64,000 nt of DNA from assembly GCF_900167535.1 (NCBI RefSeq), contig NZ_FUYE01000011.1, positions 62,001 through 126,000 of the forward strand, written 5' to 3'. This stretch comes from Prosthecobacter debontii. Lineage in GTDB: Bacteria; Verrucomicrobiota; Verrucomicrobiia; Verrucomicrobiales; Verrucomicrobiaceae. The translations under genes and the position numbers were made by a program. Positions 5,708 to 29,802 of the stretch are shown one piece after another. Each line of letters begins with the position of its first letter. Positions within the stretch are counted from its first letter, which is position 1. Below the pieces are notes generated by a model. It made no database searches. It was not told the origin of the DNA and saw only the letters and a program-made list of their open reading frames with translations.

Positions 5708-7003
5708 ATGAATCTTCATCAGCGTCTTGTGCCCCTGTCGTCATGCATGGCGAGAGTCCTTCTCGTGAGTTTGGCTCTCAATGGCTGCACAGCCACGCGG
5801 CCTGCCCGGGGTCCCACCGACCACGCTTTCATCCACTACTGGCCTGCTCCTGAAGGCAATCAAGCTTTGCGCTTGGCGGTCAAAGACTTCATTGATGTGA
5901 AAGGTTATGTGACCAGCGCCGGCTCAGAATACGTGGCTAAACACAATCCACCGGCCACCCGCGATGCCGAATGCCTGAAGATAGCTCGGGAGAGAGGCGT
6001 GCATATCGTTGGTAAAACCAATGCCAGTGAGTTTGGCGTGACGTCTTCGGGAGTGAATCCTTATTTCGGCACGCCTCGCAGCCCACTGACGGATCGGAAG
6101 CATCGGGTGATCTCGGGGGGATCCTCCAGCGGGTCAGCCGTTGCCGTGGCCACGAACTTAGCGGATGTGGCCTTTGGCACGGATACCGGAGGTTCGGTGC
6201 GCATCCCTGCAGCCTGCTGCGGCGTCTATGGTCTCAAAACCACGTTTGGATTGGTATCGCTCAAAGGGGTGTTCCCGATGTCGCCCAAGAATTTGGATAC
6301 CGTGGGGCCCTTGGCCAAAAATATTCCCAACCTTGTGCGGGGGATGAGTCTTTTGAAACGCGGGTTTGAAAAGGAATATGCGGAAGCTGTGGCGGATAGA
6401 CCGACCGGAAGGAACTTTACCGTAGGCCGCCTATATGTGGACGGCACCGATCCCGCTATTGATCAGGCTGTGGATGCTGCTTTGAAGAAGGCCGGGTTTA
6501 AAGTCATACGTCTCAACGAACGGTTCAAAGAAGCCTGGGATCAAGCTCAGAAAGATGGACTCACGATTGCGGTGGGAGACGCCTGGACGAATGATGATCA
6601 ATACCGAAACAAACGGGGTGTATCAGCTGTGACAAAAGCCACCATTTTGTTAGGCCAAGTCGAGCATCTCACCGGTGGCTATGATCGGGCTTTGCAGAAT
6701 CGCTCGTCTTGGCAGCGCTGGCTCCGTCGAACGTTTCAGCAGGTGGATATCATCGCTTTGCCAACTTTAAAGAAACAACCTCCGCCGATACCCAGATTCG
6801 GGGGGTCTGCGCTTTTTGAAGCCACGACCTTTGCATTGCAAAATACAGTGAGTTTCAATTTTTCCGGCAACCCTGCGTTGGCCATTCCGGTGCCCCTCAA
6901 AGAAGGAGAGATCCCGATGACTAGCTTGCAGCTTGTGGGTCCTCGCTTGAGCGAAGCAGAACTTTTGAACGCAGGGCGCATTGTGGCCTCCAAGCGTTTA
7001 TGA
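5708..7003 (+). CDS. Amidase (amidase signature family), predicted lipoprotein
   Basis: A 431-residue amidase-signature hydrolase. The Ser-cisSer-Lys triad can be placed: Lys59 in VKDFIDVKG, the cis-Ser at about 139 in GGSSSGSA, and the nucleophile Ser163 in GTDTGGSVRIPA. The N-terminus has a hydrophobic stretch ending in LALNGC, a plausible lipobox, so it is probably an envelope lipoprotein; many family members are instead cytoplasmic. The substrate is not predictable (amides, nitrile-derived amides, cyclic amides). Its stop overlaps the next start by four bases (ATGA), so it is translationally coupled to the TPR gene. Confidence 0.88.
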   Translation: MNLHQRLVPLSSCMARVLLVSLALNGCTATRPARGPTDHAFIHYWPAPEGNQALRLAVKDFIDVKGYVTSAGSEYVAKHNPPATRDAECLKIARERGVHIVGKTNASEFGVTSSGVNPYFGTPRSPLTDRKHRVISGGSSSGSAVAVATNLADVAFGTDTGGSVRIPAACCGVYGLKTTFGLVSLKGVFPMSPKNLDTVGPLAKNIPNLVRGMSLLKRGFEKEYAEAVADRPTGRNFTVGRLYVDGTDPAIDQAVDAALKKAGFKVIRLNERFKEAWDQAQKDGLTIAVGDAWTNDDQYRNKRGVSAVTKATILLGQVEHLTGGYDRALQNRSSWQRWLRRTFQQVDIIALPTLKKQPPPIPRFGGSALFEATTFALQNTVSFNFSGNPALAIPVPLKEGEIPMTSLQLVGPRLSEAELLNAGRIVASKRL

Positions 7004-7773
7004 ACTTATTGGATGTTAGGCATGTGATTGCCGGTTTATGCTTTTCTTTCGCATTCTGCACGGGGACGCAGGCTCAAAATCAAAGTGCCCAAGATTGGGT
7101 GCAAGCGGGCCGTGTTTATGAGTCGAAGCTGGAGAGCCAAAGAGCTTTAGATTGCTATTTGCAAGCGGAGAGGCTGGCTCCCACAGATGCGGATCTTTTG
7201 GTAAATATTGCCCGTCAGTATCGGCATCTGATGGCTGATGCGAGGTCTGAAAAAGACAAGCTTCGTCTCGGAAATCAGGCTTTGGAATATGGATACCGTG
7301 CGGCTAAACTTGGACCTCAGAATTCCGACGCCCAACTCTCGGTCGCCATCAGTTACGGCAAAATGCTGCCTTTGCTGGGGGCGAAAGAGCAGGTCCAAAG
7401 CTCTAAACTCATTCGTCAAGGCGCTGAGCGAGCCATTCAACTCAATCCTCGCAATGATCTTGCGTGGCATATCTTAGGCCGATGGCATCGGAACGTCGCT
7501 GAGATCAGCGGGCTGAAACGCACGTTGGCAGCCCTCGTTTATGAAAAACTGCCTGAGGGGACTCATGCCGATGCGGTGAAATGTTTCACCAAGGCCATGG
7601 AGATCAATCCCAAACGGCTGATTCACTACATTGAGCTCGGGCGCACTTATGCGCAGATGGGGGAGCCCAGCGAAGCTCGACGCTTTTTAGCTAAAGGTCT
7701 GAAAATGCCAAGCGTGGAAAAGGATGATGAAGAATCAAAGGCGCTGGGTCGCAGCGTTTTGGCTAAACTTTAA
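7000..7773 (+). CDS. Secreted TPR protein, RMD/FAM82-like
   Basis: A 257-residue protein with a signal peptide (hydrophobic to residue 20, cleavage near TQAQ) followed by tetratricopeptide helices. The part around NVAEISGLKRTLAALVYEK and later AVKCFTKAMEINPKRLIHY resembles the regulator-of-microtubule-dynamics (RMD) family, which has bacterial members of unknown function. It overlaps the amidase stop by four bases and is surely co-transcribed with it, so it may act as a periplasmic partner or scaffold. It converges on asnB, with only 41 bases between the stops. Confidence 0.78.
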   Translation: MNLLDVRHVIAGLCFSFAFCTGTQAQNQSAQDWVQAGRVYESKLESQRALDCYLQAERLAPTDADLLVNIARQYRHLMADARSEKDKLRLGNQALEYGYRAAKLGPQNSDAQLSVAISYGKMLPLLGAKEQVQSSKLIRQGAERAIQLNPRNDLAWHILGRWHRNVAEISGLKRTLAALVYEKLPEGTHADAVKCFTKAMEINPKRLIHYIELGRTYAQMGEPSEARRFLAKGLKMPSVEKDDEESKALGRSVLAKL

Positions 7774-7814
7774 GCCCATTCGCAAGGAGTTGAGCTAGCG
7801 CTTTGGCAGGTGCC

Positions 7815-9803
7815 TCATCCCAGAGCCTGAGTATAATGCTGTCCTGCCTGAGATGGCAATCCACAAAGGTTGCCATCGATGTAGAGATGATGCCAAAGCT
7901 GAGTGGCGACGACTGCCGCAAGACCTAACTCAATCGAAAGACGGGGTAACGAACCCGGCCGCATCTCCTGATAAGCGCGCCGCCAATGGCGAATGGCTTG
8001 GGGATCGAAATAGCCGGTCCTCTGCAAGGATTCTTCGCTAACAAGCTGCCGCACGTACTCGGGTTCAGGCTCCAGATGGAAGCTATCCAAAGGCGCTCGG
8101 AAGATGACCTTGCCGCGTTGATAAATGGAAGGCGGCAGCCAGCGCTCGGCCAGAAGGCGGAGCAGGTGCTTGTCACGGAAGCCGTGGAGCTTCCAGTCGG
8201 GGTGCAGTTTGGAGCAAAAGTCGAAGACTTCTTCATCCAGGAAGGGATAACGGACTTCGACCGAGGAGTGCATGGCCACGCGGTCGCCCTTAGCCTGGAG
8301 CAGATGCCCAGCAAGGGTGACACGTCCGGCAACCCAAATGCCCCGGTTGAGAGGATGCCACTTTTTAGCACGCTCCAGATTCAGCCCGAGGTCAGCCCAG
8401 GGGCTGGAATTGGCGAGAACACCTTGCATGGACTCGCCGTAAAAACGCAATCGGGACAGGCCTAACAAACCATAAGAATCAATCCAGGCGTTAGGGCCGC
8501 CGATCGTTTGCTCGATGTTTCGTCGAAACTGTTTCGGGAACTGCGGCACCTTACTCAATCGGAGGAAAGCTCGGCGTGCATAGTCGCTGAGACGCAATCC
8601 AGGGATGGCATCCAGATATCCGGCGAGTTTAGCCGCTTTATACCAGGGATAGCCGACAAGCCATTCGTCGGCACCTTCCCCCGTGAGGACCACCTTTTGA
8701 CCGCAGGCATGGACTTTCTGCGCCAACTGAAGCAGGGAGGCACAAGACGTATCGATGACAGGGGCCTCGGCGGCTTTGATCAGGTCAGGATATGTATCAA
8801 TGGCATCCTGATGATCGAATTGCTGCACGACAGGCGGTGGCGCCCCAATATGCTTGGCGACAAGACTGGCAGCACTCAGTTCATCTAGAGCTGGGTCATT
8901 TACCTGCACGGTGTACGTCGAGATGGACTTCCCACGCAGGTGGCACGCTAAGGCCAAGATCATGCTGGAGTCCACACCCCCGGAGAGATAGGAACCTACA
9001 GGCACGTCCGCTCGCAACCGTTTATCCACGGCGTTCAGCATGACTTGCTCGAAGGCATCCACCAGCTTCTGTTGATTCGGGTGCGGCTCTTCTTGACCCG
9101 CATCTGGGAAGTCCATTTCCCAATAGCGACGCTCTTGGATTGATGTCGTTCCGGTTCGGCCCCAGCCGGGTTTCACTTCGAGGAAGTGGGCTGGAGGCAG
9201 CATCTGAATGCCTTCGAAGCAGGTGATGGGGCCCGGTAACGCGGAAAAGGCAAAGATGTGATCGAGGCCTCGGCGATCCGGTTTTGCCGGCACGGCCCCT
9301 GATGCGAGCAAACTCTTGATTTCTGAAGCGAATAAGAGCCAGTCGCCCTGCCGGGTCCAGTAAAGCGGGCTGATCCCAAAGCGATCACGACCTAACAAAA
9401 GTTTCTGCTCACTTTCGTCCCAAAGAGCAATAGCAAACTGGCCACGCAATTTTTCGAAGACACCTTCAGCGCTTTCCTCCCAAAGATGAGGAATGATCTC
9501 GGTATCACAATGGGTAACAAGGGTATGCCCACGAGCCGCTAACTCAGCCCTCTTTTCGATATGATCGAATAATTCGCCATTGAAGACGACGGAGACCGTT
9601 TTCGCTTCATTGTGCATGGGCTGCTGCCCATCTGCCAAGCCCACGATGCTGAGTCTGCGGGAGGCGAGAGCAAGGCCAGGGCGAACGAAAAACCCCTCTT
9701 CATCGGGGCCACGATGATAGAGAGCCTGAGACATCCTTCGAATGACTTCATCAGGCACCGGGCGCTGCCCGACCAGATCCACGACGCCAGCTATGCCACA
9801 CAT
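7815..9803 (-). CDS. asnB: Asparagine synthase (glutamine-hydrolysing)
   Basis: A 662-residue two-domain enzyme. The mature N-terminus is Cys2 (MCGIAGVVD), the nucleophile of the class II glutaminase domain; the C-terminal synthetase domain carries the ATP pyrophosphatase motif SYLSGGVDSS. It makes asparagine, or another amide, from an acid, ATP and glutamine. It is longer than E. coli AsnB (554) and close to the lengths of AsnB copies found in polysaccharide and natural-product loci. It is divergent from the polyketide synthase across a 293-base spacer, so it may amidate a pathway intermediate, although an ordinary housekeeping role cannot be excluded. Confidence 0.9.
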   Translation of the reverse strand: MCGIAGVVDLVGQRPVPDEVIRRMSQALYHRGPDEEGFFVRPGLALASRRLSIVGLADGQQPMHNEAKTVSVVFNGELFDHIEKRAELAARGHTLVTHCDTEIIPHLWEESAEGVFEKLRGQFAIALWDESEQKLLLGRDRFGISPLYWTRQGDWLLFASEIKSLLASGAVPAKPDRRGLDHIFAFSALPGPITCFEGIQMLPPAHFLEVKPGWGRTGTTSIQERRYWEMDFPDAGQEEPHPNQQKLVDAFEQVMLNAVDKRLRADVPVGSYLSGGVDSSMILALACHLRGKSISTYTVQVNDPALDELSAASLVAKHIGAPPPVVQQFDHQDAIDTYPDLIKAAEAPVIDTSCASLLQLAQKVHACGQKVVLTGEGADEWLVGYPWYKAAKLAGYLDAIPGLRLSDYARRAFLRLSKVPQFPKQFRRNIEQTIGGPNAWIDSYGLLGLSRLRFYGESMQGVLANSSPWADLGLNLERAKKWHPLNRGIWVAGRVTLAGHLLQAKGDRVAMHSSVEVRYPFLDEEVFDFCSKLHPDWKLHGFRDKHLLRLLAERWLPPSIYQRGKVIFRAPLDSFHLEPEPEYVRQLVSEESLQRTGYFDPQAIRHWRRAYQEMRPGSLPRLSIELGLAAVVATQLWHHLYIDGNLCGLPSQAGQHYTQALG

Positions 9804-10096
9804 TAGGGTAGGTAATTCGGAGGTTGGTTGCTAAAATTCACCTTCATATCGCATCTGGCGGGCGTCTTGCGCCTCTGCCTTCAGTGCGGCATGAGAAAAA
9901 TTCAGCCTAGAAGGTGAGATAGAGGGCAGATGGCAAACCGAAACGCTGACTGAGTGATTAAGGCTGACTGGTAAAAATGTAATTTTCCCGAAAATGGGAG
10001 GCGCACCTCACAAGGCAAAGCCGATTCGATAAAGGTTACCCTGACGTCATCCCGTCTGCCGTTAACCAATGAATCTTCACTTACGCTCGAACCTGC
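9804..10096. promoter_or_regulatory. Divergent promoter region between asnB and the PKS operon
   Basis: A 293-base gene-free spacer with starts facing outward on both sides. It must hold the promoter of the 12.8-kb biosynthetic operon and that of asnB. The stretch around 9950-10040 is AT-richer than the surroundings. I see no riboswitch, clear operator or small gene. Confidence 0.45.
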
Positions 10097-13000
10097 ATGC
10101 AAAAAGAAGGAATCGCCATTATTGGTATCGGCTGCCGTTTTCCCGGTGGCGTGAATGACGTTGAAGCATTTTGGAAGCTTCTGGCGGAGGGGCGGGATGC
10201 TGTTTGTGAGGTGCCTGCCGATCGTTGGAACGTCGAGCGTTTCTATGACGCCGAGCCGAATCTGGCGGGTAAATCCATCGCCAAACGCGGAGGCTTCTTG
10301 GACTCCATTGATCAATACGACCCCCAATTTTTCGGTATTTCACCGCGCGAGGCTCCTTTTGTCGATCCCCAACAGCGCCTGGTTCTGGAGACAGCCTGGG
10401 AAGCCATTGAGGACGCAGGGATTGTTCTGGATCTGGAAAAAGGAACCGATATTGGCGTGTTTGTGGGTGTGTCTCACACCGACTACCAGATCATCCAAGG
10501 CACACCGTTTGATTCTGCAGGGATTGGCGCGCACTCCTCCACGGGAAGCGCTCACTCCATTGCGGCCAACCGCATCTCGTATTCGCTCAACCTGACAGGT
10601 CCCAGTGTTTCCATGGATACGGCTTGCTCCTCGGCTCTGACCGCTGTGCATGCCGCCTGTGAATACATCTGGACTGGCCGAGGTCACACAGCCTTAGCGG
10701 GTGGGGTCACGGTGATGATCACACCGGGGGGATTCATCGGATTCTCCCAGGCCTCCATGCTCTCCCCAGATGGGAAGTGCAAGGCCTTCGATGCGGAAGC
10801 CAATGGCTTCGTTCGTGCAGAAGGCGCTGGTATGGTGATGGTGAAGAAGCTGTCTCAGGCCCTGGCTGACGGCGATCCGATTCAGGGTGTCATTCTGGGC
10901 AGCTCGCTCAATCAAGACGGCCACACCAATGGTATCTCTTTGCCCAGCCCTGAAGCTCAGGCTCGCTTGGTGAAAGACGCTTGCATCGATGCGGGTATCA
11001 ACCCTAGCCACATCGGTTATGTGGAGGCGCACGGCACGGGCACCGCTGTAGGTGACCCTATCGAAGCGACGGCTCTCTCAGAAGCCTTATGCGTTGATCG
11101 TCCAGAGGGCCAACCGCTGGCCATGGGGTCCGTCAAGACCAATCTGGGACACATGGAAACCGCGGCAGGTGTGGCAGGTCTAGTGAAGGCGATGCTCGTT
11201 CTCAAACACGGTAAGATCCCGCCGAATCTCCATTACACCTCACCGAATCCGCACATTGATTTCAAGGAACTGAAGCTACGCGTGCCGACCGAGATGGAGG
11301 ACTTTCCCTCTCATCTCCCGGTGCGCATGGCAGGGGTTAATTCCTTTGGCTTCGGTGGAGCGAACTCCCACGTCATTGTGGCGGAGGCGCCCAAACAGCC
11401 CAAGGTAAAAATGCCCGCGTCGGCCTTCGAGCGCTCCTGGCCGCTGGTCGTTTCAGCCCGCTCTGAAGAAGCTTTGAAAGCCAATGCTTACCGTTTGGGC
11501 ACTTGGATTGAAGATCACGAAAGGTCCAATGGCAGTTCCCCCTTGCTGCCTGACCTGACCTACACTCTGGGAGCACGCCGCAATCATCATCAGTATCGAC
11601 TGACGCTGGTCGCTCGGAGTTCCCATGAAGCAGCTACAGCACTCCAAGCCTTTGGCATGGGCCAAGAGGTGCCGAGCATTCGCAGCGGATTTTCTCCCCG
11701 TCGCGAAACCGCTGCCCGCGTCGGTTTCGTCATGAGTGGTCAGGGGCCACAGTGGTGGGGCATGGGCCGTGAGTTGATGAAAAACGAGCCCGTCTTCCGC
11801 AAGGCCATGGAGGCCTGTGCCAAAGCGCTCGATCCCTGGACGCATTTTTCATTGCTCGAAGAACTCGCTCGCGATGAGAAGGACTCGAAGATGAGCATGA
11901 CCGAGATCGCTCAGCCGGCTATCTTTGCCATGCAGGTGTCTCTGGCTGAGTTGTGGAAGTCTTGGGGAGTTCACCCTGCGGCCATCGTCGGTCACAGTGT
12001 CGGTGAAATCGCCGCTGCCTGTGTCGCTGGTGTATTGAATCTCGAAGAAGGAGCCAAGGTCATCGCCCTGCGCGGACGTTTCATGAACGAATGCGCTCGC
12101 GGTGCAGGCACCATGTTGGCGGTAGGCCTCAATGAAGAGCAGGCCCTGGCGGTCATTGCTCGGCATGATCGCGTGGTCAGCATTGCCGCTTTCAATGGTC
12201 CTCGTTCGCTGACACTCTCCGGTCCTAAAGCCTCGCTTGAGGCCATTCAGAAGGAGCTGGAAGCCGACGGTGTCTTTGCCCGCTTTGTGCGTGTGGATCA
12301 TCCATTCCATCACGCCTTCATGCAGCCTGCGGCGGATGAACTCGTGGCGGCTCTGAAAGACCTTCAGCCCCGTGAGGAGATCGTTCCTTTCTTTAGCACG
12401 GTCACGGGTGATCGTATCACGGGGAAGGAATGTGACGCTGATCACTGGGGGCGTGGCATTCGCCAAGCCGTCATGTTTGCTCCTGCGGTCAACGCACTGG
12501 CTGATTTTGGTGTGGATGTTTGGCTGGAAATCACCGCTCACCCAGCCCTCTCGGTTTCCATTCAGGAATGTCTGTCCGCACGTGGCATGAAAGCTCCAGT
12601 GGTTGCCTCCGCACGTCGGGACCGCGAACACGAGCATATGCTTGAATCTGCCATGGAGTTGCACCGGGCTTGTGTGGACTTGGATTTCAAAGGTCTGACC
12701 CCTGGCCGTTATCAGCATACTCTACCGACTTATGCGTGGGATAAAGCCCGCTGGTGGAATGAATCCCCGGATTGGCGCGAAGGCCGTCTGGCTGCTGGTG
12801 GCAAAGGCATGCTGGATATCCGCCTTCCTCGCGCCATCCCGACCTGGATCGCCCGCCTGGACAACCGCCACATGGCCTATCTCAAGGATCACAAAGTGGA
12901 AAGCCACGTCGTGTTCCCTGGCGCTGGTTTCGTCGAACTCATCCTGGAAGCCGGGGCGCAGTATTTCGAGGGCCGTCCGTTCGCCATCGAAGACTTCGAG

Positions 13001-16000
13001 ATCCGTAAACCGCTGATCCTTCCAGAAAACCCCGCTGGTCTGCTGCTTGAGATCACTTATGATCCGAATGAGCGCACCTTCGCCATTCAGAGCAAGTTTG
13101 AACAAGGGGCCGCTTGGTCCGTGCATGTGGTCGGTTCGATGCGTGGTGAACGCACGGAGTCCATCTTCAACGGCACCACCTGGGAAGGCGCTGCCGAGGG
13201 CCTGATCTCACTGGACACTACTGATTTCTACCAGCACATGAGCGACCTCGGCCTGCGTTATGGAGACGAGTTCCGCGCTGTGCGTGAACTTTGGGCGGGT
13301 GGTGGCAAAGCCGCAGGTAAGGTGGCTCTGTCGGAAAACATCGCGTCTCGTGCGGGTGAATACTGCCTGCATCCGGTTCTACTGGATGGTGCCCTGCACA
13401 CCTTCTCGGCCGGATCCAAAACGGTCGAAGACCGCAAGGCGAAGATGAAGCTTCCCGTGCGCTTTGGCCGTATCCTTTACCTTCGCTCCCCAGGCGCAGT
13501 GACTCGAGTCCAGGCCAAGGTGGTGCAGTTCAACGAAGAGTTCATCGAGGGCAACATCGGTCTCTACGACGATGCCGGTAAACCTTGTGTCCTCGTGGAT
13601 GGCTTCCGTGCCATCAGCATGGCCGCCGCACGTCGTGCCGGCACCAGCAGTACGCGCGATCTGCTTTACCACGTGGATTGGGAACGCACCCCCACCACGG
13701 AAGCACCTGCACCGCTGGCCCCAGTCTCACTGGAGCAGTTGAAGAAGGCAGCGCAGAAGACCCTGGAGGAAGTCATCGCGGTGCGCGGTCGCGATCATCT
13801 GGAGGCCACGATGGCCTCCGAGGATGACCTCGCCGCAGCTCAGATCGCCCGCGGTCTACGCTCCATGGCCTCCAGCTTGAAGGCGGGTGAAGTCTGGACA
13901 GAAGACTCGCTCAAAGTGGCCGAGCCGATGCGCCGTGTTTACAAACATCTTGTGAACGATCTCGCCCAGCGTGGTCTGCTCCAGGTGAAAGGCGAAGGTC
14001 ACGTGCCGACCGCCACGTTCGATGCTGCGGCGGACTCCTCTACGAACGAACTCAAGCAGTTCCTCGACAAGCATCCGGGCCATCTTCCTGAAGCCCAACT
14101 CTGCTCCATCACCTGCTCGGAGCTAGGCCCGATCCTGCGGGGTGAAAAAGATGCCGTGCAGGTGCTCTTCGGCGGTTCCAACAGTGACTTGCTCGATCAG
14201 TTCTACGGTGATGGTTTGCTCTCCAGTCACTGGATGGCCATGATCACCAGCGCGGTTCAGGAAGCTGCCAAAAACCTGCCGGAAGGACGTGGTCTGCGCA
14301 TCCTGGAGGTCGGTGCAGGCACCGGCGGTCTCAGCGCCTACCTACTGCCGATGCTGCCACGCGGCGTGCATTCCTACACCTTCACCGATGTCTCGGCTGG
14401 GTTCTTCTCTGTGGCGGGCCAAAAGCTCGCGGCCTTCCCTGAGGTCGAATACAAAGTCTTCAACCTGGAAAAATCCGGTTTGGAGCAAGGCTTCGAACCA
14501 GACAGCTATGACATCGTCGTCGGCACCAATGTGATCCATGCCGTGGCCGATGTCCGCGCCACTCTGGGTTACATCCACGAAGTGCTCAAACCCGGCGGCA
14601 GCCTCGTCTTCATGGACGTGGCCAGCCCGCAGCTTTGGACGGAGTCTGTTTTCGGCCTCACCAGCGGCTGGTGGCATCTCACCGACCGCGATCTGCGCCC
14701 GGATCAACCGCTAATGCCTCGCGAGAAGTGGGAAGCGGCGATGAAGGAAGTTGGTTTCAGCGAAACCACCTCCGTTCCCGGTTTGAAAACCCCGCGCGGT
14801 GGCGAAGGTCAGATTGGCCTCTTCGGTCGCAAGGCCTGGAAAGAACCGGCCGCCGCCGAACCAACGATTCAACAACCGACCGAAGCCTCCTGGCTTATCT
14901 TCGCCGACAAGGGCGGTTTGGGTGATCGTCTGGCCATCCAGCTCGGTGCTTCTGGAACCCGTGTGCGCATCGCTCGTCGTGGTGATGAATACGCGGTGAA
15001 GGGTGACGAATACACCCTGCGTGCGAACACGCCGGAGGACTGGATGAAGCTGGTCACTTCCTACGCGGACGACACGCCGCCGGAGCGCATGACCTATCTC
15101 TGGAGCCTGGATGAACCTGCGGGCAAAGGCGAGGGCGATGCCGCTCTCATGGGCATCGATGCTCTGCTGCACCTGACCCAGGCCATCGAAAACACCACGC
15201 CAGCCGCCAAGCTGCGCATGGACCTGATCACCCGTGGTGCCCAGCCTGCGGGCGAGCACATGGGCCTCACGAATGTGGCCCAGGCTCCGTCCATCGGCGT
15301 CTTTCGCGTGATCCTCAGCGAGCATCCGAACTTCGCCTGCCGTGGCCTCGACCTGCCACCGGAAGCCACCGCTTCCGATGACACGTTGCTCTGGAACGAA
15401 CTGCTCCGCGAACACGGCGAGCGCGAAATCGCCATCCGTGGTGAAGCCCGCTACGTGCAGCGCATCAAGCGCGGTCTGCCCGTGCAGGAAGTGACGCTGG
15501 ACAGCAAGGTCCCGCTGCGTCTGGAATCCCGCGAACGCGGCATGCTGGACACGCTGCGCATGACGCCTTTCACCATGCCGGTCTGTGGCGATGGCGAGGT
15601 GCTCATCGAAGTGAAAGCTGCAGGCATGAACTTCCGCGATGTGCTGAAAGCCCTCGCTTTGTATCCGGCAGAAACCCCAGATGCGCGCATCTTTGGGGAC
15701 GAAGTCGGCGGTATCGTGGTCGCCACTGGCAAGAATGTCAGCCATGTCACCGTCGGTGACCGTGTGTTCGGTCTGGCCGTTTACGGTTTGTCCACGCACA
15801 CCCTGGCTCGGGGAGGCGATGTGGTGAAGATGCCGGACTGGATGTCCTTTGAAGAGGCCGCCACGCTGCCAGTCGTCTTCATGACCTCCTGGCATGCGCT
15901 CTACAACGTGGCCCGCATGCGCAAGGGCGAGAAGATCCTCGTCCATGCCGGGGCCGGTGGTGTCGGTATGTCCGCCATTCAGATCGCCCTGCATCTCGGC

Positions 16001-17821
16001 TGCGAAGTCATCGCCACCGCAGGCAGCCCTTCGAAGCGTGCATTGCTGCAAACACTGGGCGTGAAGCACGTCATTGACTCTCGTCGCGCGGACTTCGCCG
16101 ATGCGGTGATGGAACTCACCAACCGCAAGGGTGTGGATGTAGTCCTCAACGCGCTGGCTGGTGAAGCCATTCCGATGGGGCTTTCCTGCCTCGCCGAGTT
16201 TGGCCGTTTCATCGAGATCGGCAAACGCGACATCTACTCAAACTCGCGTATCCCGCTTTGGCACCTGCGTAAGAACGCTTCCTTCCACGTCGTGGCCATG
16301 GATGCGGTCTTCGGGGGTGATGAAGAACTGACACGCAAGTTGTTAGGCGAACTGCTGGAACTGGTCGAGGCCCGCGCCCTGCGTCCTCTGCCATTCCGTT
16401 CCTTCCCGGCGGGTCGTGTGGATGCGGCCTTCCGTCTCATGGCGGCTGGCAAACACATCGGCAAGGTAGTGGTTGCCTTCACGGATGCGTTTGTGAACCG
16501 TCGCAGCGAAGCTCCGGCTCCGGGCTTTGAAGTGAAGTCCGATGGCACCTATCTCATCACCGGAGGTTTCGGCGGCTTCGGCCGCGTGCTTTCCAACTGG
16601 CTGGTCGATTGCGGTGCTCGTCACCTGTCCCTGGTCGGTCGTAGCGGTGCTTCCACGGCGGAGGCGAAAGCTTTCGTCAAGGATCTCGAAGGCCGTGGCG
16701 TCAATGTCCAGATCATCAAGGCTGATGCCGGAGAACCTGCGGATGTCACCCGCATGCTTCAGGAAGTGGAGGCGGCTAAGGTGCCGCTGAAAGGCGTCTT
16801 CCATCTGGCCATGGTCATTGATGATGCGCCGATGGGTGTGCTGAACCGTGAACGCATGCGCACCGTCTTGGCTCCCAAAGCCTTGGGTGCCTGGATGCTG
16901 CATGAAGGCACGCTGGATCAGAACCTCGACTGCTTTGTCATGTTCTCCTCCATCTCCAGTGTGTTTGGCAACCCGGCCCAGAGTAACTACTCCGGTGCCA
17001 ACGCCTTCCTCGACTCGCTGGCCCATCATCGCCGCGCTCTCGGACTGCCTGCGCTGGCCGTGAACTGGGGTGTGCTGGGTGGTGAAGGATATGTCGCCCG
17101 CAACGAGAAGGTGGCTGAGTTCCTGGCCCGCCAGGGCACCTCTGCTATTACTCCGGGTGAAGTTACTTCCCTGCTGGAAACCTTCCTCACCGCCGGTTCT
17201 GCCCAGGTGGCTGCCCTGCGTGTGGACTGGAGCAAATGGCGTCAGTCCTTCCGCGGGCTGCAGGAGAATCCGCTGCTCGAACACATCTTCGCCGCAGGCG
17301 TGGACAGTGCCGAATCTGGCGGAGTCACGAGCGACTGGCGTGGCAAGATCGATGCGGCACCGGCCGAGGAACGTGTGGGGCTCATTGCCCAGGCGCTCCG
17401 TGAAGTGGTCGGCTCTGTGCTCCGCGTGAAACCGGACAGCCTGCGCGATGACCAACCGCTCACGGATTTGGGTCTGGACTCCCTCATGGGGGTGGAGATC
17501 GAAAACCTCATCGAGAGCACCATCGGCGTGGCTCTACCGCCGACCAGCCTCATGCGTGCCCGCACCATCGGCCAACTTGCTGCGCTGATCGGTGAGCACC
17601 TGGGCGCTGCTTCCGGTTCCGGGTCTGCGGCTCCAGCCAAACCAGCCGCTCCGGCGGTGGTCGAGGCTGCACCCTCCGTGGAGGAAATCGATCTGGATGC
17701 CATCTCCGATGCCGACATCGCCAGCCTGCTGGATGATGAACCAGCCGCTAAAGCAGCTCCGCTGGAGAAGTCTGACACGGCATCTTCGGCGAAGAAGTCT
17801 AAATCCAAAGCGAAGGCCTGA
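10097..17821 (+). CDS. Highly reducing type I polyketide synthase, KS-AT-DH-MT-ER-KR-ACP
   Basis: A 2574-residue single-module synthase with every reductive domain. KS (1-430) has DTACSSA, HGTGT and KTNLGH. AT (about 540-850) has GHSVGE near 632 and HPFH at 735, close to the HAFH of malonyl-specific ATs. DH has DHKVES with its His near 932 and LHPVLLDGALH near 1093. A C-methyltransferase shows LEVGAGTGG near 1402. ER (about 1800-2130) has HAGAGGVGM, and KR has TGGFGGFG near 2153 with Tyr near 2297. The ACP has DLGLDSLMG with Ser near 2461. There is no thioesterase. A charged tail with DADIASLLDDE ends the protein. The order matches fungal highly reducing synthases, so iterative use to make a methyl-branched saturated chain is likely. 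It heads an operon; the next start is six bases after the stop. Confidence 0.95.
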   Translation: MQKEGIAIIGIGCRFPGGVNDVEAFWKLLAEGRDAVCEVPADRWNVERFYDAEPNLAGKSIAKRGGFLDSIDQYDPQFFGISPREAPFVDPQQRLVLETAWEAIEDAGIVLDLEKGTDIGVFVGVSHTDYQIIQGTPFDSAGIGAHSSTGSAHSIAANRISYSLNLTGPSVSMDTACSSALTAVHAACEYIWTGRGHTALAGGVTVMITPGGFIGFSQASMLSPDGKCKAFDAEANGFVRAEGAGMVMVKKLSQALADGDPIQGVILGSSLNQDGHTNGISLPSPEAQARLVKDACIDAGINPSHIGYVEAHGTGTAVGDPIEATALSEALCVDRPEGQPLAMGSVKTNLGHMETAAGVAGLVKAMLVLKHGKIPPNLHYTSPNPHIDFKELKLRVPTEMEDFPSHLPVRMAGVNSFGFGGANSHVIVAEAPKQPKVKMPASAFERSWPLVVSARSEEALKANAYRLGTWIEDHERSNGSSPLLPDLTYTLGARRNHHQYRLTLVARSSHEAATALQAFGMGQEVPSIRSGFSPRRETAARVGFVMSGQGPQWWGMGRELMKNEPVFRKAMEACAKALDPWTHFSLLEELARDEKDSKMSMTEIAQPAIFAMQVSLAELWKSWGVHPAAIVGHSVGEIAAACVAGVLNLEEGAKVIALRGRFMNECARGAGTMLAVGLNEEQALAVIARHDRVVSIAAFNGPRSLTLSGPKASLEAIQKELEADGVFARFVRVDHPFHHAFMQPAADELVAALKDLQPREEIVPFFSTVTGDRITGKECDADHWGRGIRQAVMFAPAVNALADFGVDVWLEITAHPALSVSIQECLSARGMKAPVVASARRDREHEHMLESAMELHRACVDLDFKGLTPGRYQHTLPTYAWDKARWWNESPDWREGRLAAGGKGMLDIRLPRAIPTWIARLDNRHMAYLKDHKVESHVVFPGAGFVELILEAGAQYFEGRPFAIEDFEIRKPLILPENPAGLLLEITYDPNERTFAIQSKFEQGAAWSVHVVGSMRGERTESIFNGTTWEGAAEGLISLDTTDFYQHMSDLGLRYGDEFRAVRELWAGGGKAAGKVALSENIASRAGEYCLHPVLLDGALHTFSAGSKTVEDRKAKMKLPVRFGRILYLRSPGAVTRVQAKVVQFNEEFIEGNIGLYDDAGKPCVLVDGFRAISMAAARRAGTSSTRDLLYHVDWERTPTTEAPAPLAPVSLEQLKKAAQKTLEEVIAVRGRDHLEATMASEDDLAAAQIARGLRSMASSLKAGEVWTEDSLKVAEPMRRVYKHLVNDLAQRGLLQVKGEGHVPTATFDAAADSSTNELKQFLDKHPGHLPEAQLCSITCSELGPILRGEKDAVQVLFGGSNSDLLDQFYGDGLLSSHWMAMITSAVQEAAKNLPEGRGLRILEVGAGTGGLSAYLLPMLPRGVHSYTFTDVSAGFFSVAGQKLAAFPEVEYKVFNLEKSGLEQGFEPDSYDIVVGTNVIHAVADVRATLGYIHEVLKPGGSLVFMDVASPQLWTESVFGLTSGWWHLTDRDLRPDQPLMPREKWEAAMKEVGFSETTSVPGLKTPRGGEGQIGLFGRKAWKEPAAAEPTIQQPTEASWLIFADKGGLGDRLAIQLGASGTRVRIARRGDEYAVKGDEYTLRANTPEDWMKLVTSYADDTPPERMTYLWSLDEPAGKGEGDAALMGIDALLHLTQAIENTTPAAKLRMDLITRGAQPAGEHMGLTNVAQAPSIGVFRVILSEHPNFACRGLDLPPEATASDDTLLWNELLREHGEREIAIRGEARYVQRIKRGLPVQEVTLDSKVPLRLESRERGMLDTLRMTPFTMPVCGDGEVLIEVKAAGMNFRDVLKALALYPAETPDARIFGDEVGGIVVATGKNVSHVTVGDRVFGLAVYGLSTHTLARGGDVVKMPDWMSFEEAATLPVVFMTSWHALYNVARMRKGEKILVHAGAGGVGMSAIQIALHLGCEVIATAGSPSKRALLQTLGVKHVIDSRRADFADAVMELTNRKGVDVVLNALAGEAIPMGLSCLAEFGRFIEIGKRDIYSNSRIPLWHLRKNASFHVVAMDAVFGGDEELTRKLLGELLELVEARALRPLPFRSFPAGRVDAAFRLMAAGKHIGKVVVAFTDAFVNRRSEAPAPGFEVKSDGTYLITGGFGGFGRVLSNWLVDCGARHLSLVGRSGASTAEAKAFVKDLEGRGVNVQIIKADAGEPADVTRMLQEVEAAKVPLKGVFHLAMVIDDAPMGVLNRERMRTVLAPKALGAWMLHEGTLDQNLDCFVMFSSISSVFGNPAQSNYSGANAFLDSLAHHRRALGLPALAVNWGVLGGEGYVARNEKVAEFLARQGTSAITPGEVTSLLETFLTAGSAQVAALRVDWSKWRQSFRGLQENPLLEHIFAAGVDSAESGGVTSDWRGKIDAAPAEERVGLIAQALREVVGSVLRVKPDSLRDDQPLTDLGLDSLMGVEIENLIESTIGVALPPTSLMRARTIGQLAALIGEHLGAASGSGSAAPAKPAAPAVVEAAPSVEEIDLDAISDADIASLLDDEPAAKAAPLEKSDTASSAKKSKSKAKA

Positions 17822-17827
17822 GTCCGA

Positions 17828-19180
17828 ATGTCACAGGATCTCCGAGCCAATCTCAAACAGTGGCTGGAGAGCGGTGAAATCCGTCTCCAGCCCCTGAGTC
17901 TGCCGCAGCGGGAACTCTGGGAAAACTCCCCGGTTCCTCCTGGCGATATTGGGAACCACATCTGTGCCTTCATTGAGGTAACGGGCCACATCACGCCGGA
18001 GGATTGCCGCGAGGCACTTCGTTTGGTTGTGGAGCGGCAAGAGGTGCTGCGCCTTTCCTTCTTACCGGGGAAAGGCCAGCCCTTTCAGATGATTCGAGTG
18101 ACCGGCACCGTGGCGATGAACTATCGTGAATTGCCACCCGAACAGCATTCCCAAGAAGCACTGGAAGAGGTCATGGAAGAGATCTTCCGCCAGCCTTTCG
18201 ACATGCTGCGTGGGCCGCTCTATCGCGTTGAGATGCTTCAGCGAGGTCCCAACCGACAGGTGCTGGTTTTTGCCATTCACCATGCCATCGCCGATGGCTG
18301 GACCTTGGGTGTCTTTGTTCAGGATCTGGCCGGGGCTTATCTCCAGAGCAAGATGAGCAAGGGCACCCCGCTGCCTCTGCCTGACATGACTTACACGGCC
18401 TGGGCTGCGACTGAACGCGCGGCTTGGCAACCGGGACCGGAGATGGATTCCCGCATCAAGTTCTGGAAGGAGCAGTTCACCGAAATCCCACGGCTGTGGG
18501 AGCGACCAGCGGACCTAGAAGATCGTTCGGGTAAACTCACACGCTGGGCCTCCAGCGTTCCTCCTGAGGCCACGCGCGAGATTCGAGCTCTGGCCAAGAG
18601 CATTGGGGTCACTTTGTTCAACACGCTGCTCACGGCTTTCCAGATCACCCTGGCGCAATGGACCGGCAAAACCGACATCATCGTCGGCAGCCCCGTGGCG
18701 AATCGTAACTACGCCGCTGCAAAGGAAACCATGGGTTACTTCGCAGGGGTTGTGCCTCTGCGTGGTCGGGTCAATGCCCAACTTCCTTTCGCGACAGCGG
18801 CTAAGGCGATGCAAGACCAAACGATGGACTGCTTTGCCAATGCGATGCCCTTTGCCGAATTGGCCAAGGCATTGGGGCTCGCACTCGAAGAGGGGCACAA
18901 TCCGATCTTCGATGTTCGGTTTGCCCTGCAAAACCATCCCGTGCCTGATGTCACGCTTCCTAGCTTAGCGTTTAAGCTGCGCATGCGCTCCACCGGCACG
19001 GCGCGTTTTGACCTCGCCTGCGAAGTCACTGAAGACGGAGATGAGTTGGAAGTGGTGTGGCTCTATCGTCCGTCTCTTTTTGACAAAACGGACATGGAAG
19101 AACTCAATCGCCGCTATCAGAAGGTGCTGGCAGACGTATTCCATTCTCCCCACACTGCCATCTCCAGCCTCACAGCCTGA
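17828..19180 (+). CDS. Free-standing condensation-domain protein
   Basis: A 450-residue protein made of a single NRPS-type condensation domain. The active-site motif HHAIADG is at residues 151-157 (HHxxxDG intact). IVGSPVANRNY and MGYFAGVVPLRG match later conserved motifs, and the C-terminal strand ends normally. No adenylation or carrier domain is present. It starts six bases after the synthase stop. Because the synthase lacks a thioesterase, this protein is the best candidate to release the acyl chain from the ACP onto an amine or hydroxyl acceptor, as the terminal condensation domain does in some fungal synthases or as PapA-type acyltransferases do in mycobacteria. The acceptor is unknown. 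Confidence 0.9.
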   Translation: MSQDLRANLKQWLESGEIRLQPLSLPQRELWENSPVPPGDIGNHICAFIEVTGHITPEDCREALRLVVERQEVLRLSFLPGKGQPFQMIRVTGTVAMNYRELPPEQHSQEALEEVMEEIFRQPFDMLRGPLYRVEMLQRGPNRQVLVFAIHHAIADGWTLGVFVQDLAGAYLQSKMSKGTPLPLPDMTYTAWAATERAAWQPGPEMDSRIKFWKEQFTEIPRLWERPADLEDRSGKLTRWASSVPPEATREIRALAKSIGVTLFNTLLTAFQITLAQWTGKTDIIVGSPVANRNYAAAKETMGYFAGVVPLRGRVNAQLPFATAAKAMQDQTMDCFANAMPFAELAKALGLALEEGHNPIFDVRFALQNHPVPDVTLPSLAFKLRMRSTGTARFDLACEVTEDGDELEVVWLYRPSLFDKTDMEELNRRYQKVLADVFHSPHTAISSLTA

Positions 19181-19189
19181 CCGAATGTG

Positions 19190-20206
19190 ATGAATGCATC
19201 GACCACATCCTCCGATCCGCTGAATCTGAATGTCCAAGGCGATCTCGCCGATCCCCATGAAGCGCATTGGATCAGCCGTTCGGCCTTTCAGATCCTGGTC
19301 TTCATTTTGGTCTTCATTCAGGCTGGTCTGTTCGCCTCTCTTTATTATGACGTCACCTGGCTGACCGTCGTGACGACACTGCTGGCTGGGCATTTCATGC
19401 ACGGTGTGCTCATTGGCTTTCATGAAGCCTCGCACGGGTTGCTGCGCAAGAATCGCACCTTCAATGAGTTTGATGGCGTCTTCATCGGCATGTTAAGCCT
19501 CACCAGCTTCACGCTCTATCGTGTGCTGCATCAGAAGCATCATATGTATCTGGCTACGGAGCGGGATGAAGAACTCTGGCCTTTCAATGATCCTTCCAAG
19601 CCCCGCTGGTTCCGCTGCTCGGCGGCCTTTCTGGAGTTGTGTTTGGGCCTGTTCTTCACGCCCTATTTGTTCCTGCGCTGCTTCTTTGCCAAGGACACCA
19701 CTGTCCGCAGCCCGCGGGTCCGCAAACGCATCTGGAAGGAACTGATCGGCACTCTGGTCTTTTGGGGAGTTGTCGTCAGCATCGTCGCTTGGTTTGGCCT
19801 GTGGAAATACTACTTCTGCATGTATCTCATCCCTGCGATGCTCGCGGCCAATCTGCAAAGCTGGCGCAAGTACATTGAGCATGTCGGGCTGCGCGGCACC
19901 TCGGCCACTGGAGCGACCCGCAGCATCGTGAGTGAAGGCATCGCTGGCAAGCTGCTGGCCTTCAGCCTGCTGCACGAGCCTTTCCACGGCCTGCATCATC
20001 GCCATGCAGGGCTGCACCATTACGAGCTGCCTGCCCGCGCATCGGAGCTGGAACCCAAGACGCCGGAAGAGACCAAGCCTTACCCTAACTACCGCTCAGC
20101 CGTATTCGATCTGCTGCGTGATCTTGCGGATCCCAAAGTAGGGCCGCAATGGTTCAGCCAGACGAAGACAAAGGATGTCACTAACTCTGTGGCGATGCCC
20201 GGTTGA
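19190..20206 (+). CDS. Membrane fatty acid desaturase/hydroxylase family protein
   Basis: A 338-residue integral membrane di-iron oxidase. Three histidine clusters are visible: HEASH at about residues 78-82, HQKHH at about 114-118, and HEPFHGLHHRH at about 262-272, separated by hydrophobic hairpins. This is the PF00487 pattern of desaturases, hydroxylases and carotenoid ketolases. ATG 19190 is preferred over the GTG three bases earlier. It follows the condensation gene by nine bases, so it probably oxidises the polyketide chain or its lipid conjugate in the inner membrane. Desaturation versus hydroxylation cannot be decided. Confidence 0.88.
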   Translation: MNASTTSSDPLNLNVQGDLADPHEAHWISRSAFQILVFILVFIQAGLFASLYYDVTWLTVVTTLLAGHFMHGVLIGFHEASHGLLRKNRTFNEFDGVFIGMLSLTSFTLYRVLHQKHHMYLATERDEELWPFNDPSKPRWFRCSAAFLELCLGLFFTPYLFLRCFFAKDTTVRSPRVRKRIWKELIGTLVFWGVVVSIVAWFGLWKYYFCMYLIPAMLAANLQSWRKYIEHVGLRGTSATGATRSIVSEGIAGKLLAFSLLHEPFHGLHHRHAGLHHYELPARASELEPKTPEETKPYPNYRSAVFDLLRDLADPKVGPQWFSQTKTKDVTNSVAMPG

Positions 20207-20243
20207 AACGGACTGGGCCACAACCACCTTTCCCGATCCCTTC

Positions 20244-20969
20244 ATGAGTTCCACCCTTGCGTCTGCTGGCTCTGCCGCGCCTGTTTACGAAGCCATCGAC
20301 CTGAAAAAGGACTATGACGGCGGTCAGGTCCAAGCGCTGCGTGGGGTCAGCTTTCGGGTGAATGCGGGCGAGTTCGTAGCGATCACGGGCCCTAGCGGCT
20401 GCGGCAAAAGCACGCTGTTGCAGATGCTGGGTGCCCTGGATAAACCAGATACCGGCACGCTGAACTATCGCGACCAGTCCTTGCCAGACTTGACGGATCC
20501 TCCGGCTTATCGAGCCCATGAAATCGGCTTTATCTTTCAGGCCTTTCATCTGCTGCCGACTTACACCGCTGTGGAGAATGTGCAGATCCCGATGTTTGAG
20601 GGGAAACTGGGGACGAAAGCTCGTCGGGATCGTGCGATTGAATTGCTCACCCAAGTGGGTCTCAGTCACCGCATCCATCATTTCCCCGGCAAGCTCTCTG
20701 GGGGTGAACGCCAGCGAGTGGCCATTGCTCGAAGCCTAGCCAATAATCCAGGCGTGCTTCTGGCGGATGAACCCACGGGTAATCTCGACAGCAAGAACGC
20801 GGCGCAGGTCCTTGAACTCCTGGTGAAACTCCACCAGGAACAACGGACAACGCTGATCATGGTCACACATGACATGAGCATCGCTCGCATGGCGGAACGT
20901 GTCCTCTTAATGAAAGACGGACTCATTGTTTCAGATGGCAACCTCGACGTGGAGCCTAACCAGCTATGA
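20244..20969 (+). CDS. ABC transporter ATP-binding protein, MacB/LolD type
   Basis: A 241-residue ATPase. Walker A is GPSGCGKST, the signature motif is LSGGERQRVAIARS, and Walker B is VLLADEP. The overall pattern, including FQAFHLLPTYTAVENV, is the MacB/LolD subfamily that pairs with FtsX-like permeases. An upstream in-frame ATG at 20175 would overlap the desaturase and add 23 residues unlike the family, so I start at ATG 20244. Its stop overlaps the permease start by four bases. With the permease it forms an exporter or lipid-extraction machine for the product of this operon. Confidence 0.92.
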   Translation: MSSTLASAGSAAPVYEAIDLKKDYDGGQVQALRGVSFRVNAGEFVAITGPSGCGKSTLLQMLGALDKPDTGTLNYRDQSLPDLTDPPAYRAHEIGFIFQAFHLLPTYTAVENVQIPMFEGKLGTKARRDRAIELLTQVGLSHRIHHFPGKLSGGERQRVAIARSLANNPGVLLADEPTGNLDSKNAAQVLELLVKLHQEQRTTLIMVTHDMSIARMAERVLLMKDGLIVSDGNLDVEPNQL

Positions 20970-22081
20970 CTTTCCTAACCATCGTCATACGCGGCCTTTT
21001 ACGCCGGCGCATGCGCACCGCGCTGACGCTGGTGGGCATCTCCATCGGCATTGCCGCCGTGGTGGCCCTGGTGGGCATTTCAGAAGGCTTTGAGAAAAGC
21101 TGGGCCAAGGGACTTAATGCCCGCGGCACCGACATCGTGGTGAGTAACATGGGAGGTGCCATGGTTCCCAAACCGTTTCGAATGGATGTGCGGGATCGCA
21201 TAACCGCTCTGCCGGAAGTCGCTGCGGCAGACATGCTGATGGTCGAATTGATGAGCGTGGAAAATGCCAACATGATCATGGTCTCAGCACGTGAGTGGGG
21301 GGGATTCACGTGGGAAAATCTGAAGCTGATTTCGGGTCGGCTGCCTCATGATACAAAGGAACCCGCCGCAGTGCTGGGTCAAACAGCGGCTGAAGTGCTG
21401 AACAAAAAGGTTGGTGATTCGCTGCAAATCGAGGCGACCGAGTTGACGGTTGTCGGCATCGTCAATGGGGGGGCCCTCGTCGAGAATGGATCGATCATTC
21501 TAGCCCTGCCCATTCTTCAAGAAATCATGGCCAGCGAAGACAAAATCAATGTTGTGGATGTGCGTGCACGAGCTGGCATGACCGAAGCGGAACTGGAGGC
21601 CTTATGTGCCAAGATCAATCAGCTAGTCCCTGAGGTCAGAGCTGTATCCGTGGCTCAGCATTTGTCACACAGTCAGGGTTATCAGATGATTCGTGCCATG
21701 AGCTGGGGGACTTCGTTGCTGGCGGTTCTCGTCGGCGTGCTGGGTGTGATGAACACCATGCTGATGACGGTCTTTGAACGAAAACAAGAAATCAGCGTGC
21801 TTTTGGCCATCGGCTGGAAGCGCAATCGCATCGTGCGCATGATTCTTTGGGAGTCGGCCTTGCTGGGATTCGCTGGGGGCATAGGAGGTGTGATCCTGGG
21901 GGTGGTCGGCACGCATCTCATGCAGGCTGCACCTGCCATTAAAGGATTGTTAGAGCCGGATCTCGGCGCATTGCTTTTGCTGCAAGCTGTGGCGATCGCA
22001 GTCACGGTGGGGGTGCTCAGTGGTCTGTATCCAGCCTGGCGAAGCGCCCGTTTAAATCCGGCTGCGGCCCTCAATGGCTGA
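20966..22081 (+). CDS. ABC transporter permease, FtsX/MacB family
   Basis: A 371-residue permease with one N-terminal membrane helix (about 17-37), a large periplasmic MacB-type core domain, and three C-terminal helices (about 250-370) ending in YPAWRSARLNPAAAL, the usual MacB ending. MacB-type permeases do not move substrates through a classic channel but work mechanically on periplasmic or membrane-embedded lipophilic cargo, such as lipoproteins, siderophores or lipopeptides. It is coupled to the ATPase by ATGA overlap and followed by a LolA-like protein, which fits transfer of an amphipathic product to the outer membrane. Confidence 0.92.
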   Translation: MTFLTIVIRGLLRRRMRTALTLVGISIGIAAVVALVGISEGFEKSWAKGLNARGTDIVVSNMGGAMVPKPFRMDVRDRITALPEVAAADMLMVELMSVENANMIMVSAREWGGFTWENLKLISGRLPHDTKEPAAVLGQTAAEVLNKKVGDSLQIEATELTVVGIVNGGALVENGSIILALPILQEIMASEDKINVVDVRARAGMTEAELEALCAKINQLVPEVRAVSVAQHLSHSQGYQMIRAMSWGTSLLAVLVGVLGVMNTMLMTVFERKQEISVLLAIGWKRNRIVRMILWESALLGFAGGIGGVILGVVGTHLMQAAPAIKGLLEPDLGALLLLQAVAIAVTVGVLSGLYPAWRSARLNPAAALNG

Positions 22082-22122
22082 TTAAAGGCGTGCAAAACCG
22101 AGGTGTCCTTCGATTCCTTTCC

Positions 22123-22908
22123 ATGATGACCCAGCGAATTTTTCTCTCCGGTTTGATCTCCACCTTCGGACTCTTCTGTTTCCCTGCTTTGACGCTGGCT
22201 CAGGCACCTTCTGGCAAGGAGTTAGCAGCAGAGTTGAATGCCGCTCATCAAGATGGCACCTCTTACATCCGCATGAGATTGGAGGTGAATGGCGGAGGTG
22301 CCATTCAAATCCAGAGCAAACAAAGACATGTTCAGGGGAGTTCTGAGACCATCTATCAGATCCTCTTTCCGAAGGAACGTAAAGGTGAGTCTGTGTTGTT
22401 GAAAAAGACCTCGAGTGGTGCGCCTTCAGGCAGTGTGTTCATTCCACCCTCGGAAGAGAAAAGCCTGAGCGCGGGTGACATGAAGCAGCGTCTTTTCGGA
22501 AGCGATCTCACTTATGAAGATATGATTGGAAACTTCTTTGCCTGGTCCAATCAATCCATTCAGGGCCAGGAAGACATTGGCCGCCATACGTGTTGGATTT
22601 TGGAATCCAAACCTTCGGCTTCCGATCATTCCAGTTATGCCTCGGTGAAAAGCTGGATCGATGTCGAACGCAAGGTGCCACTCAAGGTCGAAAAATATGA
22701 TTCAAAAGGGGCTCTTCAAGTGAGCATTGAAACCACCAACGTCGAAAAAGATGATTTGGGGAGATACTTACCTGCGAGCCTGGAAGCCAAGCGCAGTGGC
22801 AGTGGGGGAAGCAGCGTTTTTGAAGGTTCCCGCATCAAGCACGGAGTCGGCCTCACCGATGCAGATTTTACACCTCAAGCGCTGAAAGACTTGACTGTGC
22901 CGAAGTAA
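22123..22908 (+). CDS. LolA-like outer membrane lipoprotein-sorting protein
   Basis: A 261-residue secreted protein. I start at ATG 22123 (ATG 22126 also possible) because the signal peptide then follows directly and cleaves near ALTLAQA; the longer GTG-started form from 22090 has a poor leader. The body matches the outer membrane lipoprotein-sorting protein family (PF17131, LolA-like fold), with the hallmark GSDLTYEDM and the SWIDVERKVPLKVE strand. Such proteins carry lipid moieties in a half-barrel cavity and often sit beside MacB/LolCDE-like or RND permeases. Last gene of the operon; it probably chaperones the exported lipid-like product through the periplasm. Confidence 0.82.
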   Translation: MMTQRIFLSGLISTFGLFCFPALTLAQAPSGKELAAELNAAHQDGTSYIRMRLEVNGGGAIQIQSKQRHVQGSSETIYQILFPKERKGESVLLKKTSSGAPSGSVFIPPSEEKSLSAGDMKQRLFGSDLTYEDMIGNFFAWSNQSIQGQEDIGRHTCWILESKPSASDHSSYASVKSWIDVERKVPLKVEKYDSKGALQVSIETTNVEKDDLGRYLPASLEAKRSGSGGSSVFEGSRIKHGVGLTDADFTPQALKDLTVPK

Positions 22909-24621: not shown

Positions 24622-27824
<3,203 letters not shown>

Positions 27825-27828
<4 letters not shown>

Positions 27829-29705: not shown

Positions 29706-29714
29706 TCGCTTTTT

Positions 29715-29750: not shown

Positions 29751-29802
29751 GATAGACATCGGGGCTGCGATTGCCTTGTGAACGCTGCTAAGGCGTTTTG
29801 CT

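Follow-up and report, generated by a model that had tools for sequence, protein, structure and literature searches.

The genome of Prosthecobacter debontii carries a locus, shared with other Verrucomicrobiota, that we consider rather likely to encode a pathway devoted to a polyketide lipid with methyl branches. A free-standing condensation (C) protein would release the chain, a membrane enzyme would oxidize it and a Lol-like apparatus would export it, with an amide made inside the cell and possibly acted on outside. The gene content of the locus, its intact active sites and the co-inheritance of its genes can be read directly from the DNA. Since the six-gene arrangement at its core recurs in dozens of genomes, it is not a product of chance.

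Genes of the operon and its neighbourhood

The window (the whole stretch analysed, 64,000 nucleotides of contig NZ_FUYE01000011.1) contains the following features, given in window coordinates.

5708-7003, plus strand: amidase-signature enzyme with a lipoprotein-type signal, probably periplasmic (Pfam Amidase, 1.4e-63)
7000-7773, plus strand: secreted TPR protein (Pfam RMD1-3, 7e-17, and TPR)
7815-9803, minus strand: asparagine-synthetase-like glutamine amidotransferase, divergent from the polyketide synthase (PKS) gene (Asn_synthase, 4.8e-73; GATase_7)
9804-10096, no strand: intergenic region of 293 bases between two divergent start codons, presumably the shared promoter region of the amidotransferase and PKS genes
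10097-17821, plus strand: highly reducing PKS with KS-AT-DH-cMT-ER-KR-ACP domains, presumably iterative, with an acidic C-terminal tail motif (Pfam, alignment)
17828-19180, plus strand: free-standing condensation-domain protein (Condensation, 1.5e-71)
19187-20206, plus strand: membrane oxidase of the fatty-acid-desaturase family with three His boxes (PF00487 FA_desaturase, 5.5e-34)
20175-20969, plus strand: open reading frame of a LolD/MacB-type ABC ATPase, likelier start at ATG 20244 (ABC_tran, 2.6e-35)
20966-22081, plus strand: FtsX/MacB-type permease (MacB_PCD, 3.9e-20; FtsX, 1.1e-18)
22090-22908, plus strand: LolA-like periplasmic carrier (LolA_like, 7.9e-29)

Checking open reading frames against Pfam gave six genes at 10097-22908, all on the plus strand, and not the eight-gene set of an earlier, sequence-only reading of the window. 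The PKS, C protein, oxidase, exporter and LolA-like carrier that it had described as one run of genes were all recovered. The gaps measure 6, 6, about 37 and 8 bases, and the ATPase and permease genes overlap by 4 bases. As it had also stated, the PKS is devoid of a thioesterase: KS, AT, DH, cMT, ER, KR and ACP domains were matched, and none of the 22 Pfam families listed was a thioesterase. Its statement that the locus lacks a gene for making the acceptor is doubtful: 293 bases upstream, in divergent orientation, lies an amidotransferase gene that it had missed and that travels with the locus within the genus.

This amidotransferase, the secreted TPR protein and the amidase-family lipoprotein (5708-9803) belong to the locus and bring it to nine genes. 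The amidotransferase contains the Cys2 glutaminase and ATP-pyrophosphatase motifs of the asparagine-synthetase-like class (MCGI, SGGVDS and GEGADE, with equivalents in three relatives) and is 30% identical over 643 residues to the other AsnB of the genome. Because of this second AsnB gene, and because 22 out of 34 genomes of the genus have neither the amidotransferase nor the C protein, a housekeeping role is unlikely. Its best PDB match was 7ylz, titled hydroxyamidotransferase; this entry is TsnB9, linked to trichostatin in the reference list of a paper covered here in part (PMC13122635). The window amidase has the motifs VKDFID, GGSSSGS and GTDTGGS; GatA and fatty acid amide hydrolase ranked high among its PDB matches, with ClbL at a lower rank. 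In most of its relatives, visual inspection showed a Cys following a hydrophobic stretch at the N-terminus, and the TPR proteins have signal-peptide-like N-termini by the same measure. In relatives, the TPR gene adjoins the amidase gene or directly precedes the PKS gene.

In all 48 distinct full-length PKSs (the window copy included, the others being 60-87% identical to it), the KS Cys/His/His, AT Ser and DH His/Asp residues were retained, as were the cMT, ER and KR glycines and the KR Tyr/Asn. The ACP Ser was present in 47 out of 48, the remaining row being a gap where the ACP region is missing. This retention supports methylation and full reduction, as claimed earlier. The AT of the window PKS has an HPFH motif; malonyl-type AT enzymes have HAFH at that motif. 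The operon holds one PKS module and, although the genome gave five KS-family matches, none was another PKS of this size, which suggests that the single module is used iteratively. Downstream of the ACP, a variable Ala/Pro-rich linker leads to a short acidic motif like DLDALSDEEIDRLLG, matched by a loose pattern in all 47 PKS rows with an ACP, with a degenerate copy in locus L119. This tail looks like a docking peptide. We rejected the C protein as its beta-hairpin docking partner because the C protein has no beta-hairpin domain.

The C protein (450 aa), whose C fold starts at about residue 16 and whose Pfam C domain starts at residue 21, was the only PF00668 match in the genome, and there was a single ACPS-family (PF01648) match. 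In its HHxxxDG motif, the second His, Asp and Gly were invariant in 15 out of 15 sequences; the first His was replaced by Gln in L045. Its fold is that of an NRPS C domain (Z up to 38.2, rmsd 2.8, 420 residues), and starter C domains scored the same Z as other C domains. Three genomes of the genus (G008, G015 and G030) each have two diverged copies of the C protein.

All three His boxes of the desaturase were invariant in 16 out of 16 sequences, and a profile search for solved relatives gave 0 matches at E up to 0.1. The best NCBIfam match of the ATPase was LolD (1.4e-70), at 237.3 of 307.75 bits and below the cut-off; the operon has a single permease gene, which scored 63.5 of 362.45 bits for LolC/E. 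With the LolC, LolD and LolE equivalogs all under their curated cut-offs, the operon does not encode a recognized LolCDE lipoprotein exporter. The model of the LolA-like protein (pLDDT 86) has the half-barrel fold of the LolA superfamily. Its best three matches were a DUF1329 protein, LolA3 of P. gingivalis and a LolA-type protein of Vibrio (Z 26.8-27.6, rmsd 2.5-2.7, 229 residues), compared with Z 7.2-12.8 for entries titled classical LolA; its Foldseek matches included the mycobacterial lipoprotein LprG. The MacB and LolA families serve unrelated cargo too. Between the desaturase and ATPase genes, four loci of the genus (L043 [11760-13361], L045, L048 and L052) have a gene for a lipoprotein-like alpha/beta hydrolase of about 530 residues, with remote homologues (28-33%) in seven other loci.

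Distribution and co-inheritance in Verrucomicrobiota

We scanned contigs with the desaturase alignment, using one genome per species, and obtained 69 loci, every one from a record titled Verrucomicrobiota; some of these titles are metagenome bins with doubtful species names. Because the scan relied on a pair of short peptide patterns, relatives without these can escape it, and its loci overlap an earlier set of 16 loci, so the two were not summed. Records without a metagenome-bin label accounted for four loci: Chthoniobacter flavus Ellin428, Verrucomicrobium sp. BvORR106 and BvORR034, and Brevifollis gellanilyticus. The PKS and C frames are interrupted in the Ellin428 draft. Metagenome records titled Akkermansia muciniphila, probably misnamed bins, also had the locus (L063 and L100).

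Sequence of 2.2 kb or more upstream of the desaturase was available for 59 loci, and in 56 of them the PKS and C genes lay there, the exceptions being L109, L118 and L120. Among the 57 loci with at least 3.5 kb downstream, 45 had the ATPase, permease and LolA-like genes within 6.5 kb, and this count rose to 47 with L058 (ATPase found by tblastn) and L091 (LolA-like gene at 6.8 kb). The exporter and carrier genes are therefore not regularly missing or unlinked in relatives: the trio lies within 6.8 kb in 47 out of 57 testable loci. The remaining 10 loci did not have the full trio. Only the LolA-like gene went undetected in L057, L111, L116 and L122; L061, L104 and L067 had the PKS, C and desaturase genes with no exporter nearby (in L067, an ABC pair lies 8.7 kb away); and L094, L118 and L120 had a desaturase without a PKS. 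Across Verrucomicrobiota, the genes for the PKS, C protein, desaturase, exporter and LolA-like carrier are co-conserved; the sequence-only reading had named co-conservation of the PKS, condensation, desaturase and LolA-like genes as support for one pathway.

Desaturase homologues with no nearby PKS were seen in L094 (less than 2 kb upstream), L109, L118 and L120; in L120, the desaturase gene directly follows the amidase and TPR genes. In L042 (G030:C140), PKS and C genes were followed by no desaturase or exporter gene up to the contig end. Clustering of open reading frames for additional conserved genes returned mostly shadow frames of known genes, along with two genuine additions that occur in part of the loci: a hydrolase and a protein matching no family. 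In 11 loci, a gene after or near the LolA-like gene encodes a protein of roughly 370 residues to which neither Pfam nor NCBIfam gave a match (in L081, at 13618-14754), and six of eight such genomes tested gave no amidotransferase match.

Within the genus, the C protein was found in 12 out of 34 genomes. The amidase (E up to 1e-60) occurred in exactly those 12 and in 0 out of 22 genomes without the C protein, and the amidotransferase (E up to 1e-120) occurred in 10 out of 12 and 0 out of 22, respectively (Fisher 1.8e-9 and 5e-7, kinship ignored). The two misses were G020, with a 105-residue piece at a contig end, and G011, with none. When 25 genomes were placed on an rpoB tree, the PKS label required seven changes, at least six of them forced by supported branches, and 100 of 500 shuffles gave a change count as low; the label is thus scattered on the tree. 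The amidase, entered with a presence list identical to that of the C protein, agreed with the PKS in all six independent supported pairs (p 0.03), and the gene set therefore seems to have been gained or lost as a unit within the genus.

Beyond the genus, the amide genes were often absent and the coupling looser. Among 11 order-level genomes, G040 had the C protein without amidase or amidotransferase, and G043 had an amidotransferase match of 48% without amidase. Among 46 desaturase-carrying genomes, 31 had both amide genes, two the amidase only, two the amidotransferase only and 11 neither. At E up to 1e-100, the amidotransferase was found in 33 of these genomes and not found in 13; the amidase was not found in 13 at the threshold used. 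Given these absences and G040, the amide steps are not universal. In a phylum-wide sample, with at most four candidates scored per genome in the rows listed, the C protein was detected in 5 out of 383 genomes at E up to 1e-90, our own genome counted. The locus looks patchy in the phylum, and not universal.

The amidase, TPR and amidotransferase genes occurred together in 19 out of 30 short stretches around amidase homologues. Of 33 amidase-positive genomes, 30 had a known contig extent, and in 24 of these the amidase shared a contig with the desaturase, at a distance of 1.7-22.5 kb; in the other six it lay on another contig (four contigs shorter than 11 kb, one site near a contig end in G066 and one long contig in G089). 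Outside these 30, the amidase of L059 is located behind the LolA-like gene. G018 has the amidase and PKS on separate contigs and retains both.

The proposed pathway and its alternatives

In the reading we favour, the PKS would work iteratively on malonyl-CoA with methylation by SAM, and the C protein would take the place of a thioesterase by moving the ACP-bound chain onto a small amine or alcohol; candidate acceptors are an amine, an amino acid that is later amidated, or a lipid alcohol. The desaturase-family enzyme would then hydroxylate or desaturate the chain at the membrane, the MacB/LolD-type ABC pair would extract the lipid and the LolA-like protein would ferry it. These four steps follow what is known of the protein families. 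Two further steps, of which we are least sure and whose genes are missing from part of the relatives, would be conversion of a carboxylate of the product or acceptor to an amide by the amidotransferase and action of the lipoprotein amidase on an amide outside the cytoplasm. They draw on co-inheritance within the genus and on the precedent of SoaC, in the part of that report covered (PMC13284220). The earlier proposal of a dedicated pathway for an exported lipid-like molecule is supported by the co-conservation, but its boundaries proved too narrow; the lipid nature of the product and chain release by the C protein are inferred.

A bolder version is speculative and rather doubtful: the product would be a lineage-specific outer-membrane polyketide lipid of Verrucomicrobiota whose carboxyl is amide-capped in the cytoplasm by the amidotransferase and, after Lol-like export, uncapped or re-coupled by the lipoprotein amidase. 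To our knowledge, such an amide mask and unmask cycle for a surface lipid is unlike any known pathway.

Instead of an envelope lipid, the amide genes could also serve a soluble bioactive polyketide, its acid masked by the amidotransferase for self-protection, exported by a MacB-type pump and unmasked by the amidase outside, with the LolA-like protein merely shielding a greasy molecule. SoaC, encoded beside a highly reducing PKS, converts sorbic acid to sorbamide with proposed self-protection in the part of the report considered (PMC13284220), and the two amide genes occur together in 31 out of 46 genomes and singly in only two and two. However, a LolA-fold carrier in 47 out of 57 loci points to insoluble cargo, and the 11 genomes with neither gene manage without both; we regard this explanation as possible but unlikely. 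It is improbable that the C protein instead acts as PapA proteins do and esterifies trehalose or another sugar, giving a mycobacteria-like acylated sugar with the TreS/maltokinase-like gene at 24622 included. That gene begins 1.7 kb downstream of the operon, and the second-best model match of the PKS was the Pks2 sulfolipid synthase, at 1191 of 2400 bits (half the cut-off). Yet no TreS match above cut-offs was found downstream of the operon in the relatives' stretches examined, and in two Verrucomicrobium records the TreS matches next to the amidase reached only 37-38%. We therefore rejected trehalose as acceptor by way of this gene, which is not a conserved neighbour in those stretches. Membership of the Pap family found no backing in the matches listed: the C protein had no Pap protein named in the best 60 of its 61 sequence matches in the PDB or in the listed fold matches, an absence that does not exclude it.

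That the ABC trio is a private sorting system for the lipoprotein amidase and the hydrolase of some loci, with the PKS acyl chain modifying those proteins, is very improbable. A LolD-like ATPase, a LolA-fold carrier and a lipoprotein do share one locus, but the trio is also found in loci of genomes without an amidase match (for example, L071, L077 and L099). The window interval 24622-32610, after the operon, encodes a TreS-maltokinase-like protein, a GlgB-like protein and a further amylase-family protein, which were not seen beside the operon in the relatives' stretches examined.

Relation to known systems and significance

Mycobacterial lipid pathways include Mas, the LolA-fold lipoproteins LppX and LprG and the Pap proteins of the condensation superfamily, and their methyl branches come via methylmalonyl-CoA. 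In the acyltrehalose pathway, as described in the part of the report covered, a PKS for methyl-branched chains is combined with PapA3, an acyltransferase separate from it, and with MmpL10, an exporter dedicated to the pathway (PMC4183827). The DAT/PAT, sulfolipid and DIM pathways (Pks3/4, Pks2 and Mas) share with our locus, at this partial coverage, a methyl-branching PKS, a separate acyltransferase and a dedicated exporter. By contrast, the Verrucomicrobiota locus has cMT-domain methylation in place of methylmalonyl-CoA, an ABC pump of the MacB/LolD type in place of MmpL and an NRPS-like C protein; its operon has no FadD-type gene, and an amidotransferase and an amidase are added.

Aryl polyene clusters resemble the locus in bringing a polyketide-type chain to the Gram-negative outer membrane, for which a LolA-like carrier, ApeL, and the LolB-like ApeN have been proposed in the portion of the paper covered (PMC8253772). 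They differ in the part of their gene table covered, where each enzyme is a separate protein with one function, the transporter, ApeM, is of the RND type, and no C protein or multidomain PKS is listed (PMC8253772). The free C protein with a catalytic HHxxxDG motif recalls enacyloxin. There, Bamb_5915 catalyses the release step. This separate C protein uses a short C-terminal motif to act on a chain bound to a carrier, according to the sections covered (PMC9113145); the window C protein differs in having no N-terminal beta-hairpin docking domain. The sorbamide system, SoaA/B/C, likewise pairs a highly reducing PKS with a glutamine-using amidotransferase to yield a polyketide amide, whereas it is fungal, uses hydrolase release and, in the part covered, names no exporter or reversing amidase (PMC13284220).

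Monomodular PKSs with a polycyclic-tetramate-macrolactam-like architecture have been described in Verrucomicrobia (PMC10308959, covered in part) and, as far as can be told, are of a different type from the window PKS; a further paper, in the part covered, concerns another verrucomicrobial genus (PMC7343977). The acyltrehaloses of mycobacteria, the aryl polyenes, enacyloxin and sorbamide each provide precedent for parts of the logic, and the combination was not found in the literature searched. Judged from listings, the open-access literature held no description of the locus; subscription papers lay outside the search.

A 2025 review, in the part covered, calls the secondary metabolism of Verrucomicrobiota underestimated (PMC12714770). 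The linked amidase and amidotransferase lead to a concrete chemical prediction, and, with four loci from records not labelled as metagenome bins, strains may be available. If the reading as a dedicated lipid pathway is true, Verrucomicrobiota would have a dedicated polyketide-lipid component comparable to the methyl-branched lipids of mycobacteria.
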